Shown here in pieces: positions 46,082-58,590 of a stretch of 64,000 bases of DNA; position 1 is the first letter of the stretch; each line of letters begins with the position of its first letter. The position numbers were made by a program, and so were the translations under genes. The stretch lies in the NCBI RefSeq assembly GCF_001458335.1, contig NZ_CYTO01000004.1:1-64000 (forward strand). Reading direction: 5' to 3'. The stretch is from Cognatishimia activa (GTDB lineage: Bacteria > Pseudomonadota > Alphaproteobacteria > Rhodobacterales > Rhodobacteraceae). The notes under the pieces were generated by a model. It was not told where the DNA came from, made no database searches, and was given only the letters and a program-made list of their open reading frames with translations.

Positions 46082-47380
46082 TCAACTTTCGCGCATCGCG
46101 CGCGAGAAATAATTCGTGAAAGGTTCCAGCAAGTAAGTCAAAGGCGTTCGGTCTTTTGTTCTTAGAAAGGCATCGACCGGCAATCCTGGTCTCAGAACAA
46201 GGTCGTCCGGTAATTTCGCAAATTCGACCGGGTCGACGCGAACTTCAGCGCGATAATAGGTTTTCCCAGTGATTTCGTCCGCAAATGTGTCTGCGGACAG
46301 GTGTGCGACGACGCCCATAAGCGGTGGTGTTGTTTTTTGGTCCAAGGCAGACAGCCGAAGGTCGACTGATTGGCCTATATAGACTTCATCTACCTGAGTC
46401 GGCGCGACTCGCGCGACGACGCGCAGCGATGCATCTTTCGGGACGATGTACAGCAACGGTTCCGCGGCGATGATCACCGATTTTTCTGAGAAAACCGACA
46501 TCCCATGAACGTGACCGGACACCGGAGCGCGGATTGTCATTTGTTCAAGGCGCCGTCTTTGGGTGTTGAGGGTTTGAATCAATTCAACTTCCTGCACCTC
46601 AATATCTCGCAGAGTTTCGATCGCCCGTTCGCGATATGCTGCTAAACGTCGCGTGGCTTCAATCTCAAGTTCAGTCTGCCGACCTGATGCTTGGGCACGG
46701 GCGGCCTTCAGTGACCCAATTTGACCCTGCAGATCTGCTTCGTCTCGCAGTAAGGACCGCACCTGATGAGACCGCGCCAATCCCTTTTTTAGAAGAACTT
46801 CTTGATCCAAGAGTTCCTTCCGCAGCAACACCAGTTGTTTTGATAAGGCGTCATTCTGGGCGTCCAGCCCAGCCAATTGATCGTCGATTTGCGCACGGCG
46901 TTCGTGAATTTGGTCGGTTTCTTGACGCAGTGCAGTCTGACGCGCTTTGAAGAGGTCGGATTGCCCCTCCAGCAACGATTGAACATCTGAATCTTTTGTC
47001 GCGATATTCAGAAGCTTTGCGTCGAAGGTGATGCTGTCGGCTCCATTGCGCTCGCTGATAAGTCGCCCGCGCCGCGCCGTAATTTCGAACAATTGCCTTT
47101 GCAGAATTGCGATGGTGGATTCCAAGCGATTTGTGTCCAATTGAATCAACGGATCACCGGCGCGCACCCAATCGCCTTCGTCTACAAAAATGTCAGAGAC
47201 AATTCCGCCCTCGAGATGCTCGACCACCTGTCGCTTTTGACCTGCTTCGATTTGGCTCGGAACAATGAGAGCGCCAGCGATCTGGAAGCCTGTCGCCCAA
47301 GCACCGAATCCAAAAAACAAGAATCCTATGGCGATCAAACCAATCCAAACGTGCCTTTTTGTTGAATCTAGATTCCCCAC
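46082..47380 (-). CDS. HlyD-family type I secretion adaptor
   Basis: 432-aa membrane-fusion protein that bridges an inner-membrane ABC exporter to a TolC-type outer channel. One N-terminal anchor helix (about 11-33), a biotinyl-lipoyl half (ALIVPSQIEAGQKRQVVEHLEGGIV), a long coiled coil (about 95-280) and the closing lipoyl half and barrel (IRAPVSGHVHGMSV, VARVAPTQVDEVYIGQSVDLRL) are all visible. The start is a GTG, 5 bp after the ABC stop, so the two are co-translated. No outer-membrane partner is nearby. Confidence 0.93.
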   Translation of the reverse strand: MGNLDSTKRHVWIGLIAIGFLFFGFGAWATGFQIAGALIVPSQIEAGQKRQVVEHLEGGIVSDIFVDEGDWVRAGDPLIQLDTNRLESTIAILQRQLFEITARRGRLISERNGADSITFDAKLLNIATKDSDVQSLLEGQSDLFKARQTALRQETDQIHERRAQIDDQLAGLDAQNDALSKQLVLLRKELLDQEVLLKKGLARSHQVRSLLRDEADLQGQIGSLKAARAQASGRQTELEIEATRRLAAYRERAIETLRDIEVQEVELIQTLNTQRRRLEQMTIRAPVSGHVHGMSVFSEKSVIIAAEPLLYIVPKDASLRVVARVAPTQVDEVYIGQSVDLRLSALDQKTTPPLMGVVAHLSADTFADEITGKTYYRAEVRVDPVEFAKLPDDLVLRPGLPVDAFLRTKDRTPLTYLLEPFTNYFSRAMRES

Positions 47381-47385
47381 TGTTA

Positions 47386-49137
47386 CTACTGCATTCCCAT
47401 TTGGGTGCGCGCGGTCTCAAGCGCTTGTTCTATGCCGCGGTGGTTTGAAACCGCCTTACGCAAAACACGGTCTCTTGCTCCGAAAGCATCGACACGGCCG
47501 TTCTTAAGAACAAGCACATTTTCGCATTCTCGGATGGCATCCGGTCGTTGAGACATGATGATGACTGATTTTTTTGCCGTCTTCATGCGTTTTATGGAAC
47601 GGTTGAGAGCGGCTGCGCCAGAACTGTCGAGATGAGAGCTTGGTTCATCCAAAACCAAAATCACTGGGTCCGAGTAGAGCGCGCGGGCCAACGCGATACG
47701 TTGCAATTGACCCGCAGAGAGGAGCTCATTGGCATTGTTAAAAACAGTATCGTAACCTTTTGGAAGGCTTAAGATCAGCTCGTGCGCCTCAGCCCATTTC
47801 GCTGCCTGAACAACTTTTTCGGAGTCTGGTTCTGACGAAAGTCCAGCGATGTTCTCTGCAATCGTAGCTTCAAATAGTTCAACATGCTGAGGCAGATAGC
47901 CGATATATTTTGCAAGCTGAGCGATTGGGTATTGATCGATTGAAGCTTGGCTCAGCTCTATCTTTCCTGAAGTGATCGGCACTGCGGTCACTAGGGCACG
48001 CGCCAAAGTGGATTTCCCTGATGCAGATGGCCCAATCACGCCAAGGGCCTCACCTGGTTGTAGATTGAAATGAACGTTTTTTAGAACGACACGATCGTTT
48101 AGATTAGGCGCAACGCTTAGCGCCTTAACATCCAACCTCGCCTTGGGCTTGGGAAGTTCGATAGGTTGGGCTATGCGTGGTGCTTGTGTGAGCAAAGCAG
48201 CAAGATTCCACCAACTCTTACGCGCATTTTGAAAATTCGACCATTGACTGATGGCGATTTCAATTGGTGCCACGGCACGTGACGCCAAGATTGAACTGGC
48301 AAGCACCGCGCCCAGCGAGAGTTCTGATCGCACGACCAAATGCGCCCCTGTTGCTAACATGGCTGATTGCAACAACAATCGAAGCGTTTTGATTGCTGCT
48401 GAGAACCCACCCGTTATATCCGAACCTTGCAGGTGGTGCGCATGCAGATTTCGGATGTTTCTCTGCAAACGTTCGAAACCGCTGCCTTGAATGCCAAGAC
48501 CCTGAAACGAATTGGGGTCACGGCCTAGCATGTTTCTTAAACCTGATCCTTGATGAGCGAGCTGATGCGCTTTTTGCCGCGGGTTTTGGGATAGGTGCTG
48601 ATTGAGGATGGCGGCAAAAATCAAAAGGATGGTTCCCAATAGTGCCACGTGACCTAGCCATGGGTGGAAAACAAAGAGGCCCAGCAAGAATATCGGGGTC
48701 CACGGCATATCAAATGCTGCTAACGGACCGGGGGAGGCGGTAAAGCGTTTGAGCGTCTCGAGGTCTGACAGCCCCCATTGCGTTCTATGCGACGCAAAAC
48801 GGGAAGGGGGCGTGAGCAGAGCGTCAAACACACGTTTCTCAAGTTGCTCATAAAATTTTTCAGCAATGCGCGCCAATATGCGTCCACGGACATAATCCAG
48901 CACTCCCATAATCAGCAAAAGAAAGACGACTAAACCTGTGAGTACGACGAGGGTTTCAATGCTTCGGCTCATCAATACCCTATCATAGATCTGCAACATA
49001 TAGATCGGGCCAGAGAACATGAGGAGATTGGTAATCGTACTGAAGAACGCTACGATCCAATAAAACGCGCGGCTTTGACGACGCGCGGCGCGTAACTCTT
49101 CTAGTCCGCTTGCAAACTCTTTCAGATTTCTTGCCAT
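47386..49137 (-). CDS. type I secretion ABC transporter, PrtD-like, variant H-loop
   Basis: 583-aa half-size exporter: membrane domain about 25-310 (six helices) then an ATPase domain about 335-560. There is no peptidase domain, so it is of the PrtD class for cargo with C-terminal signals. Walker A is GPSASGKST (369-377), signature LSAGQLQR (473), Walker B VILVLDEPS (492). The switch region reads IIMSQRPDA with Gln530 where nearly all ABC proteins have His; the codon is CAA (47548-47550). The protein is otherwise intact. It may have slow or altered hydrolysis. The cargo is not in the window. Confidence 0.9.
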   Translation of the reverse strand: MARNLKEFASGLEELRAARRQSRAFYWIVAFFSTITNLLMFSGPIYMLQIYDRVLMSRSIETLVVLTGLVVFLLLIMGVLDYVRGRILARIAEKFYEQLEKRVFDALLTPPSRFASHRTQWGLSDLETLKRFTASPGPLAAFDMPWTPIFLLGLFVFHPWLGHVALLGTILLIFAAILNQHLSQNPRQKAHQLAHQGSGLRNMLGRDPNSFQGLGIQGSGFERLQRNIRNLHAHHLQGSDITGGFSAAIKTLRLLLQSAMLATGAHLVVRSELSLGAVLASSILASRAVAPIEIAISQWSNFQNARKSWWNLAALLTQAPRIAQPIELPKPKARLDVKALSVAPNLNDRVVLKNVHFNLQPGEALGVIGPSASGKSTLARALVTAVPITSGKIELSQASIDQYPIAQLAKYIGYLPQHVELFEATIAENIAGLSSEPDSEKVVQAAKWAEAHELILSLPKGYDTVFNNANELLSAGQLQRIALARALYSDPVILVLDEPSSHLDSSGAAALNRSIKRMKTAKKSVIIMSQRPDAIRECENVLVLKNGRVDAFGARDRVLRKAVSNHRGIEQALETARTQMGMQ

Positions 49138-55861: not shown

Positions 55862-57142
55862 ATGGATAACACCGCAAACCAATCCTCTGACGCAATCCTT
55901 GACCGGATGATGGCCCTACACCCCAAGATCATTGATCTGACCTTGGATCGAGTTTGGCGGTTGTTGAAAGCGCTCGACGACCCACAGGAGAAATTGCCGC
56001 CAGTGATCCATATCGCAGGCACCAACGGCAAAGGCTCTACCCAAGCAATGATCCGTGCTGGGATCGAGGGTATGGGCAAGTCTGCTCATGCATATACGTC
56101 GCCGCATCTCGCGAAGTTTCACGAACGCATTCGTTTGGCGGGTGAGTTGATCAGTGAAGAGCATCTGACGGAAGTTTTGGACGAGTGTTACGCCAAGAAT
56201 GATGGCATCGACATCACGTATTTTGAGATCACAACCTGCGCCGCGCTATTGGCCTTTGCTCGGACCAAAGCGGACTACACTCTGCTTGAAGTGGGGTTGG
56301 GGGGGCGACTGGACGCGACCAATGTGATCACGCCAGAGATCTCGGTGATTACGCCTGTTTCAAAAGATCACGAGCAATTCTTGGGAGATACCATCGACAA
56401 GATCGCCGCTGAGAAGGCGGGTATCATCAAACGAGGCGTGCCTTGTGTGGTTGGCCCTCAGGACGACGCTGCGATGGATGTGATTGAGGCCACCGCATTG
56501 CGTCTGGGTGCTCCGTTGCTTGTCTATGGTCAGCACTGGCATGTGAGCACTGAGCGTGGCCGTTTGATCTATCAAGATGATCATGGCCTGCTGGATTTAC
56601 CGATGCCGGCACTGCTTGGAGCCCATCAGGTGATCAACGCCGGTGCAGCTTTGGCTGTTTTGCGCCACTTGGGCGCTGATGATGCAGCTTGTGAAGCGGC
56701 GATGGTGAATGCGGAGTGGCCTGCAAGGATGCAGCGCCTTAAATCCGGCCCACTGATCGACATCGCCGGCGATGCGGAACTCTGGCTCGACGGTGGCCAT
56801 AACGCCGCTGCTGGGATTGCGATCGCGGAGCTTCTGAAGGCTCTGCCACAACGGAACGTGCACCTGATTTGCGGCATGCTGAATACCAAGGATGTAAACG
56901 GCTACCTCGCGCCGATTGCTAAGGAAGTCGTCTCTCTCACAGCTGTATCTATCCCAGGTGAAGCCAACACTCTGCCTGCAGAAGCGACCGCTCTTGCAGC
57001 GGCGCAAGTCGGGATGGAGGCGAAAACGGCTGCGAATGTGGCAACTGCATTGAAAGATATCATCGCAGATCATCCAGATTGTCGGGTTTTGATTTGTGGA
57101 TCACTCTACTTGGCCGGAGTGGTGCTTCGAGAGAACGGGTAG
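55862..57142 (+). CDS. folC: folylpolyglutamate/dihydrofolate synthase
   Basis: 426-aa Mur-ligase-type enzyme that joins glutamate to dihydropteroate and to folates. The P-loop is HIAGTNGKGSTQAMIRAG (about 57-74), with YTSPHLAKFHERIRL after it, LLEVGLGGRLDATNVI, and SVITPVSKDHEQFLGDTIDKIAAEKAGIIK. The C-terminal lobe has LWLDGGHNAAAGIAIAEL and LICGMLNTKD. The first residues (MDNTANQ) are a short extension. The gene is complete. Confidence 0.95.
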   Translation: MDNTANQSSDAILDRMMALHPKIIDLTLDRVWRLLKALDDPQEKLPPVIHIAGTNGKGSTQAMIRAGIEGMGKSAHAYTSPHLAKFHERIRLAGELISEEHLTEVLDECYAKNDGIDITYFEITTCAALLAFARTKADYTLLEVGLGGRLDATNVITPEISVITPVSKDHEQFLGDTIDKIAAEKAGIIKRGVPCVVGPQDDAAMDVIEATALRLGAPLLVYGQHWHVSTERGRLIYQDDHGLLDLPMPALLGAHQVINAGAALAVLRHLGADDAACEAAMVNAEWPARMQRLKSGPLIDIAGDAELWLDGGHNAAAGIAIAELLKALPQRNVHLICGMLNTKDVNGYLAPIAKEVVSLTAVSIPGEANTLPAEATALAAAQVGMEAKTAANVATALKDIIADHPDCRVLICGSLYLAGVVLRENG

Positions 57143-57177
57143 CGCGAATTTTTTTTGCAGGGCTAAGTCGTTGAAAC

Positions 57178-57244
57178 GACTCACTTCTGCGAATCGCTGA
57201 GTGACCGATTCGTAGAAATCGATTCGGAGCCACTTGACCGATTC
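57178..57244. repeat. cluster of five GANTC sites with CGATTCG repeats
   Basis: In the 263-bp gap between the convergent folC and zapE genes, GANTC occurs at 57178, 57191, 57207, 57221 and 57240. Four of them lie in CGATTCG or its complement CGAATCG, and a degenerate copy (CGATGCG) follows at 57251. GANTC is the methylation site of the alphaproteobacterial CcrM methyltransferase. No promoter is needed here, so the cluster has no obvious transcriptional role. A sixth GATTC stands at 57379. Confidence 0.7.
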
Positions 57245-57355
57245 GTTTACCGATGCGTATAGTCTCTCTAGCAGGACTTTTTTCAATAATGGCAGTGGGA
57301 TAGAGGTGGCCGAGCAGCGCCTTTAAGCCCATGACAGGCAAGTCTATCGGGACCA

Positions 57356-57377
57356 GGGGATGCCAACGGGCGTCCCC
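57356..57377. other. hairpin in the folC-zapE gap
   Basis: GGGGATGCC and GGCGTCCCC pair (one T-G wobble) around an AACG loop. It lacks a T run on either side, so it may serve as a bidirectional end hairpin for folC and zapE but is not a classical terminator. Confidence 0.45.
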
Positions 57378-57405
57378 TGATTCGTTTGGAAATCCGTGAT
57401 TTGAC

Positions 57406-58473
57406 TTAGGAGTCCTTGCCCCAATCCGCATCCTGCATTTCGCGAAGACGGCTTGCAGTACGTTCGAACTCAAAAATGCCTTCGCCTTCAAGATAAAGCA
57501 TCTCTGGCTCGGCCGCCGCCGAGCAGATCAGGCGCACTTTTGCTTCATACAGCGCATCGATCAGGGTTACGAAACGTTTGGCTTCGTTAAAGTTATTCCG
57601 GCTGAGCGTCGGGATGTCTTCGAGGACCAGCACTTTCAATGCATCAGAAATAGCAAGGTAGTCGCCAGCGCCGAGAAGCTTGCCGCAAAGGTCGAAGAAC
57701 GTCGCGCGACCGACGCCGTTGCGAAACGCGGGGATTTCTACTTCGCGGCCCTTAACTGTGAGGAATAACGGACTAGCACCACCGCCACTGAGGTCATCAA
57801 AAATAGCGCGCATCTGAGCGCGCGCTTCGCTGCCCGCTTGAACAAAATAGACTTGGCTGCCGGACAATCGATTTTGGCGATAGTCGGTCTCTGATGCCAT
57901 CTCATACACAACCATCTGCTCTTTGAGCACATCGATGAAGGGCAGGAAAAGCTGGCGGTTTAGTCCGTTTTTATAAAGATCATCGGGGACGCGGTTTGAC
58001 GTGGTTACGACAGTCACACCAGCATCAAAAAGCATCTCGAATAGACGCCCAACAATCATCGCATCCGTAATGTCGGTGATCTGCATTTCGTCGAAGGCCA
58101 GCATCCGCACGTCGTCTGCGACTTTTGCAGCAACCGGGGCGAGCGCGTCCTCTACGCCTTCTTTGCGCGCCTCGTGCATGCCTGCGTGGATTTCCTGCAT
58201 AAATGCGTGAAAGTGGACGCGTCGCGCGGGGACATCAGCCGCTTCTACAAACAAGTCCATCAACATAGACTTGCCGCGGCCCACGCCACCCCAAAGATAA
58301 AGGCCCTTTACAGGTTCGGGTTTGGCCTTTTTGAACCAACCTTTTTTCTCGGGTGGTTTCGCAAGCCCGGCGCGCACGCGTTCGAATTCTGGCAACACGG
58401 CCTCTTGCGCCGGGTCTGGGGTCAATTCGCCTGCCGCGACGCGGGCAGCATAGATATCTTGGATTGTCGTCAT
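57406..58473 (-). CDS. zapE: AFG1/ZapE-family ATPase
   Basis: 355-aa AAA+-like ATPase that in E. coli acts on the division ring during late cell constriction, and in mitochondria on misfolded respiratory proteins. Motifs: Walker A LYLWGGVGRGKSMLMDLF, the segment HFHAFMQEIHAGMHEAR, Walker B MLAFDEMQITDITDAMI, and the AFG1 marks VVTTSNRVPDDLYKNGLNR and LSRNNFNEAKRFVTLIDALYE. The frame continues far upstream but the family begins at ATG 58473 (MTTIQDIYAARV). It is divergent from the GST gene. Confidence 0.94.
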   Translation of the reverse strand: MTTIQDIYAARVAAGELTPDPAQEAVLPEFERVRAGLAKPPEKKGWFKKAKPEPVKGLYLWGGVGRGKSMLMDLFVEAADVPARRVHFHAFMQEIHAGMHEARKEGVEDALAPVAAKVADDVRMLAFDEMQITDITDAMIVGRLFEMLFDAGVTVVTTSNRVPDDLYKNGLNRQLFLPFIDVLKEQMVVYEMASETDYRQNRLSGSQVYFVQAGSEARAQMRAIFDDLSGGGASPLFLTVKGREVEIPAFRNGVGRATFFDLCGKLLGAGDYLAISDALKVLVLEDIPTLSRNNFNEAKRFVTLIDALYEAKVRLICSAAAEPEMLYLEGEGIFEFERTASRLREMQDADWGKDS

Positions 58474-58590
58474 GAAATCTGCATAGCGGTTGGCGCAGGG
58501 TGTGAAAAGGGAGCGCGGGTGCTTGACCGAAAAAAGCAGAAGCCAAGCCGCTTGGATACTGGCATTGTGTGCGCGGAACGGAGGGGCGAC

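Follow-up and report, generated by a model that had tools for sequence, protein, structure and literature searches.

Five GANTC sites of the CcrM type lie within 67 bp between two convergent genes of Cognatishimia activa, which raises the question of what such a cluster could serve at a place where, according to a preliminary description of this DNA, there is no promoter to regulate. The convergent arrangement is correct, with folC on the plus and zapE on the minus strand, and a letter scan of the window (the whole stretch of 64,000 nucleotides analysed here) confirmed the five sites and their intervals of 13, 16, 14, and 19 bp (Table 1). Four sites had been placed inside the repeat CGATTCG; four indeed read CGAWTCG, but only three are CGATTCG and the fourth is its reverse complement CGAATCG. 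Site 1 reads CGACTCA. We take the upstream gene to be folC from its domain content and protein family, and the downstream gene to be zapE, presumably encoding a cell-division ATPase.

One GANTC site per 256 bp, the frequency assumed in the preliminary description, is too high for this genome. The whole window holds 98 sites vs. 286 expected from dinucleotide shuffles, and the 630 sites in 464 kb of sampled sequence correspond to one per 737 bp, so that a cluster of this density is rarer than had been thought. Within this sample, which combines the window with 20 additional 20-kb stretches (~14% of the 3,358,706-base genome), positions 57178-57244 are the only run of five GANTC in 67 bp. The next densest are runs of three, located inside or at the edge of coding sequences, with one (L206, 3306-3363) left unplaced. 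The approximately three-fold shortage of GANTC in the window agrees with the published avoidance of this motif in CcrM-bearing genomes, where it is described as under-represented overall and over-represented between genes (passages of PMC3973325).

Dense GANTC stretches also occur in other settings. In the window, four sites lie within 70 bp (47306-47375) at the start of the minus-strand ORF 46082-47380, adjoining the minus-strand ORF 47386-49137; both are presumably secretion-type genes. In other genera, seven GANTC starts fall within 60 bp together with TTGACTGATTCGATTCTGATTCG (L139 1080-1139, also L112), and five sites within ~67 bp (L129, ~1455-1521); neither folC nor zapE was matched in the L139 stretch or the L129 locus. 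A repeated unit containing CGACGCGCATGCGCGCGCGAATCGATT makes GANTC recur through ~1440-1720 of L131. Nearly identical DNA with CGAATCGGTGACTCTTGACCGG was found near position 1501 in four genera (L118, L119, L121, and L122), and a fifth (L123) scores the same; this DNA resembles an element, mobile or plasmid-borne, that these genera share and that brings along a GANTC promoter-like site.

Table 1. Features of the folC-zapE region of C. activa, in window positions.
Feature	Position	Strand	Basis or occurrence
folC (folylpolyglutamate synthase type), upstream convergent neighbour	55862..57142	+	Pfam Mur_ligase_M and Mur_ligase_C matches
Distal box TGAAACGACTC around GANTC site 1 (57178-57182)	57172..57182	+	Site in 9/9 Cognatishimia genomes; box also in operon-bearing L167 and L191
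GANTC site 2 (CGAATCG)	57191..57195		Present in 8/9
GANTC site 3 (CGATTCG)	57207..57211		Present in 8/9
GANTC site 4 (CGATTCG here, CGAATC in others)	57221..57225		Present in 9/9, central base A or T
Sigma-70-like promoter: -35 TTGACC (57234-57239), 18-bp spacer, -10 TATAGT (57258-57263)	57234..57263	+	10/12 consensus positions
GANTC site 5, adjoining the -35 hexamer, ~30 bp upstream of the predicted start	57240..57244		Present in 9/9
Predicted non-coding RNA, ~118 nt (start and end predicted)	57270..57387	+	Conservation; no conserved small ORF; no Rfam match
Intrinsic-terminator-like hairpin	57354..57379	+	Terminator scan; compensatory changes in alignment
zapE/AFG1-like ATPase, downstream convergent neighbour	57406..58488	-	Pfam AFG1_ATPase, E 2.6e-104

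Contrary to the preliminary description, the region does contain a promoter-like sequence. A sigma-70-like promoter lies inside the cluster and a terminator-like hairpin follows 90 bp further on; they are the only such site and hairpin in 57100-57450, where shuffles lead one to expect 0.3 of each. In 9/9 Cognatishimia genomes, GANTC site 5 begins at the base right after the -35 hexamer, i.e. in the region between the -35 and -10 elements. Transcription would start at ~57270, seven bases past the -10 element, placing site 5 at about -30. The sequence TTGACCGATTCG and the 18-bp spacer are likewise present in all nine genomes, with a -10 element of TATAGT in seven and TATATT in two. An exact search of the own genome found TTGACCGATTCG once and a control with reversed letters twice, and no regulon was found by this route. 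A named-genome search with the promoter pattern returned eight stretches, five from the genus, one from a Pseudoprimorskyibacter MAG, where it follows folC, and two from a planctomycete and a Paenibacillus, which lack a folC or zapE match and were taken as chance.

Of the options listed in the preliminary description, a small RNA is the one that the sequence supports. Small-RNA genes are recognised by a promoter of their own, an intrinsic terminator within ~50-300 bp, and the lack of a conserved ORF, and all three are found here. RNAalifold on the nine Cognatishimia RNAs yields 14 consensus pairs. Five of these have compensatory changes, and every one of the five belongs to the terminator hairpin, so that pairing support is confined to the terminator; folded as a single sequence, the complete RNA is unremarkable (z -1.57). 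In the own genome the hairpin is followed by a weak T tract, which reads TTTTTT in L008 and L009. No small ORF is common to the nine RNAs, and both a small protein encoded in the RNA and an antisense ORF across the array were rejected because neither is conserved. Rfam covariance models gave no match up to E 5 over 56900-57700 and none at the gathering score in 14 related loci. A model of the RNA body run over 248 family genomes had 13 matches, and none of the 12 outside the own genome has folC or zapE in its 3-kb locus; 11 of these 12, on inspection, look like unrelated terminators or coding DNA, with no true relative among them. A DNA match in another genus (L010) falls in unrelated GC-rich coding sequence.

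The region is present in all nine Cognatishimia genomes searched, and the sites are kept in 43 of 45 site-by-genome cells, 40 of them exactly at -80, -67, -51, -37, and -18 from the -10 element. Three kept sites, all in L008, are shifted by 1 bp, site 3 is lost in L002 and site 2 in L007, and L003, L006, and L009 each have an extra GANTC site. Site 4 varies between GATTC and GAATC among the genomes, indicating that GANTC itself, not its exact letters, is kept. Between the own genome and its eight relatives, the RNA is 61%-91% and the array with the promoter 65%-82% identical, vs. 34%-42% at the four-fold degenerate sites of folC, which are near saturation. The higher identity of the RNA indicates that it is under selection; here we rely on the four-fold sites, as a shuffled control for RNA identity misbehaved owing to free end gaps (mean 0.11, maximum 0.55). 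Such conservation implies that the RNA or its transcription probably still has a function in the genus, and as the RNA body itself is conserved, it argues for a role of its own rather than for transcription toward zapE alone.

Beyond the genus, the promoter can be followed with a promoter-only, sequence-only model of 71 positions, which was run over the 248 family genomes (one per genus) and matches 28 of them at E<=0.05, the own genome included. Ten of the 27 outside matches have folC upstream in the 3-kb locus (L106, L107, L109, L110, L111, L113, L114, L116, L117, and L120), an additional one (L108) sits 1.6 kb after folC, as seen in the longer stretch L133, and 16 are located elsewhere. Among the best ten outside matches, eight lie after folC, the exceptions being L112 and L115. 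zapE is found in 238 of the 248 family genomes and is not adjacent in L109, L110, L114, and L120. In many genera, a rhodanese-like gene and a LysM gene, identified by Pfam on the pair of L140, stand between folC and zapE, and the N-terminus of the rhodanese-like protein suggests that it is secreted. The other genera with the same promoter keep GANTC, with different upstream spacings; L142 has an operon promoter without GANTC.

To compare promoter and operon, 40 flanks (L160-L199) were selected by zapE rank, irrespective of the promoter, and 25 of them were scorable. Fourteen of the 25 have the rhodanese gene, and 12 of these 14 also have the GANTC promoter; among the 11 lacking the gene, one has it. 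The first 40 flanks, of 1.5 kb each, contributed six scorable loci, none with rhodanese. Two of the six have the promoter (L066 and L078, represented in the count by L113 and L107), which brings the totals to 12 of 14 with and 3 of 17 without the rhodanese gene. Flanks in which folC was absent, short, or <200 bp from the end of the stretch were dropped (15/40 of L160-L199 and 34/40 of the first 40, counting L066 and L078 as scored); in several of these, folC and zapE are too close for a promoter to fit between them. Across 59 scored loci, partly chosen through promoter matches, we found the promoter without operon in 18 (nine of them Cognatishimia), with rhodanese and LysM in 15, and with LysM in 3, the operon without a matching promoter in 4, LysM without promoter in 2, and neither promoter nor operon in 17. 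As the promoter test spans 380 bp after folC, L133 is scored as lacking a promoter, although its promoter lies further on; L139 is left out of this count, and so are L066 and L078, which duplicate the genomes of L113 and L107. In the 27 sampled other genera with the promoter, rhodanese and LysM genes follow in 15 and neither follows in 9, as in Cognatishimia, operon absence in these genera being judged within the stretch read. In one of these nine (L186), ~550 bp remain, with a second promoter-like site. The L140 rhodanese protein has no match in any of the nine Cognatishimia genomes; such an empty result would by itself be weak evidence, but the same query matches in 19 other loci; the LysM protein has weak matches, mostly to the LysM domain, in eight of the nine. 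In two additional genera, a GANTC promoter-like stretch lies nearer to zapE (L148 2552-2599, L046; L149 3558-3565, L054) and is followed by a short terminator-ended stretch; no GANTC promoter was found right after folC in either.

Loci with and without the operon can be compared directly. In a quick folC tree, L147, which has only the promoter and a short RNA, is sister to L167 with the full operon (support 89), and both fall in a clade with the operon-bearing L197 (support 99). With 32 of 56 inner branches open, this tree is weakly resolved, and only in the case of L147 does it give some support to a position for the loss of the operon. The alignment between L147 and L167 covers the promoter region and resumes from AGGCAGGAAT through the terminator; in this second part, L147 matches the L167 3'UTR after LysM nearly letter for letter. 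For Cognatishimia, the link between the RNA and an operon 3'UTR is weaker, as it is based on a short motif: CAGGCA lies shortly before the terminator of the RNA in all nine genomes (ACAGGCA in six). By manual reading, it also precedes the terminator that follows LysM in 7 of the 25 loci with an operon or LysM; a scripted count of 12 includes CAGGCG and matches past the terminator. CAGGCA was rejected as a general terminator companion in this genome (6 of 196 terminators vs. 3.6 expected). L167 and L191 also contain the Cognatishimia distal box TGAAACGACTCA.TT.CT.CGAATCGC, and none of 200 shuffles matched as well in either locus. In all, seven operon loci were compared with the array. Its similarity exceeded all 200 shuffles in these two and in L134, where the match lies near the promoter and not at the distal box; it did not exceed the shuffles in L162, L140, L144, and L197. 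As the distal box recurs in the operon locus L167, the array seems older than the loss of the operon.

That the rhodanese-LysM operon of other genera is missing here also suits another reading, in which the promoter is real and GcrA/CcrM-controlled but the transcript has no function, being either a decaying remnant or a by-product of transcription toward zapE, which would itself matter through interference or read-through antisense. The zapE stop lies ~27 bp beyond the terminator hairpin, and the weak T tract makes read-through in this direction possible. A functionless transcript would hardly account for the identity of the RNA relative to the silent sites of folC, and zapE-directed transcription is at odds with L110, L137, and L138, which have the order folC-promoter-RNA without a zapE match in the stretch read, zapE being on another contig there. 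We regard this reading as unlikely.

Which protein would use the array is a related question. All nine Cognatishimia genomes have GcrA (PF07750, over its cut-off) and RAMA (PF18755), a domain that we take to be a marker of CcrM; among 14 control genomes, the former was also found in Caulobacter and, unexpectedly, in Sulfolobus, and the latter only in Caulobacter. These markers, and sites that are kept while the central base of site 4 varies, uphold the CcrM-type link made in the preliminary description. The published GcrA motif YGAKTCK fits 5/5 sites here and 45/46 in the genus, compared to 115/625 background sites. GcrA is hypothesised in passages of PMC7987155 to activate from methylated YGAKTCK in Caulobacter, whereas Brevundimonas is described there as having no preference for it beyond a slight one for C before GANTC. 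According to parts of PMC3667746, GcrA binding is methylation-dependent and mutations to GCnTC lower PmipZ, PpodJ, PflaY, and PpleC by 60%-80%, but CCNA_00697 and ctrA P1 fusions were unchanged when their sites were altered, so not every GANTC promoter is methylation-responsive. Passages of PMC4287350 count 96 cell-cycle start sites that have a GANTC no more than 50 bp away and report activation at 40-60 minutes for start sites with GANTC between -35 and -10; among the cell-cycle start sites bound by GcrA, 31% have a GANTC at this distance.

Another repeat-binding transcription factor, or a MucR-like occlusion of methylation, might instead use the CGAWTCG repeats, with GANTC incidental. The longer CGAWTCG is found at 4/5 sites here vs. 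11/625 background sites, the spacing is fixed, and MucR is reported to shield some GANTCs from methylation in Caulobacter and Sinorhizobium (excerpts of PMC5172544). Against this, the flanks vary (CGAATCA, TGATTCG, and CGACTCA) while GANTC stays, the pattern fits the GcrA motif, and the same promoter keeps GANTC at other upstream spacings elsewhere, making this alternative improbable, more so than a functionless transcript. A methylation-sensitive structural or replication-control site without a role in transcription, or a chance repeat, would suit the high site density between convergent genes but is very improbable, since a promoter (TTGACCGATTCG-N10-CGTATA, 9/9) forms the most conserved block and precedes a protein operon elsewhere, and chance is excluded by the conservation and the sampled background, which revealed neither a lack of conservation in relatives (nine genomes) nor a genome full of equally dense clusters (464 kb).

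We therefore consider it probable that folC and zapE are separated by a small-RNA gene whose regulatory half is the cluster, and that a GcrA/CcrM-type promoter persisted there after its operon was lost and now drives a conserved small RNA; the preliminary interpretation is thus partly supported. By analogy with the GcrA and CcrM families, we propose that the region is methylated, binds GcrA, and is transcribed into a stable RNA in a timed manner. CcrM would methylate the GANTC sites. In Caulobacter, GcrA contacts RNA polymerase and binds GANTC when methylated; here, it would use site 5, such that the promoter may fire at a set time after the replication fork has passed. The four upstream sites with their fixed spacing could provide more GcrA occupancy or a sharper response to the methylation state. 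The product would be a non-coding RNA of ~118 nt ended by the terminator hairpin, and regulation by base pairing is our likeliest guess for its action. As to its origin, the same promoter after folC would have preceded the genes of the secreted rhodanese-like and LysM proteins, as it does in other genera, and their disappearance in Cognatishimia and nine other genera may have left the promoter and a terminator-ended RNA with a 3' end like that of the operon 3'UTR. More tentatively, and with somewhat less than even confidence, we propose that the promoter of a GcrA/CcrM-timed rhodanese-LysM (envelope) operon repeatedly outlived its protein genes in the Rhodobacterales, each time leaving a transcript of promoter, 5' end, 3'UTR, and terminator that is now a conserved regulatory RNA.

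A GANTC cluster that had no explanation thereby becomes a specific candidate gene of marine bacteria, which would encode a non-coding RNA and have a CcrM/GcrA-type promoter of unusual site density, and the rhodanese-LysM operon after folC becomes a candidate GcrA target in many genera of the family. If the proposed origin is true, a regulatory RNA can form when an mRNA loses its coding part, related genera still show the state with the operon, and the small RNA would keep the cell-cycle timing of the lost operon. Bacterial small RNAs derived from 3'UTRs or mRNAs are a known class, with which this RNA would share a 3' end and terminator in common with an mRNA 3'UTR (L147 vs. L167); it differs in that the coding genes appear to be deleted and the RNA retains the promoter of the operon.

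The closest known promoters are the GcrA/CcrM sigma-70 promoters of Caulobacter (ctrA P1, mipZ, and podJ), which likewise have GANTC between -35 and -10, at -28 or -29 in ctrA P1 and at -24 in podJ P2 (part of PMC4287350) vs. about -30 here. GcrA and CcrM-type markers in the genome and sites fitting YGAKTCK are also shared. In contrast, the predicted product here is non-coding, and five sites fall within 67 bp, whereas only 11 of the 96 Caulobacter start sites have more than one GANTC (same part of PMC4287350). Among cell-cycle RNAs of the Alphaproteobacteria, the Caulobacter ncRNA CcnA is similar by description, but its targets ctrA and gcrA are not known to apply to the RNA proposed here (excerpts of PMC8959179). 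EcpR1 of Sinorhizobium is likewise described as a small RNA tied to cell-cycle control, but is titled as stress-induced (PMC4414408, in part). No description of the gene was found in the accessible portions of the literature on Cognatishimia small RNAs, on GcrA and sRNAs in the Rhodobacterales cell cycle, or on GANTC in Dinoroseobacter. The main text of a Ruegeria pomeroyi sRNA survey (PMC4809877, in part) does not name folC, LysM, or GANTC and mentions a single rhodanese gene, as one entry among listed targets; a Paracoccus survey (PMC5107571, in part) contains no term that was looked for. GANTC promoters and cell-cycle ncRNAs are already known, and the new part is the five-site array on a predicted non-coding gene, together with its proposed history from operon to RNA.
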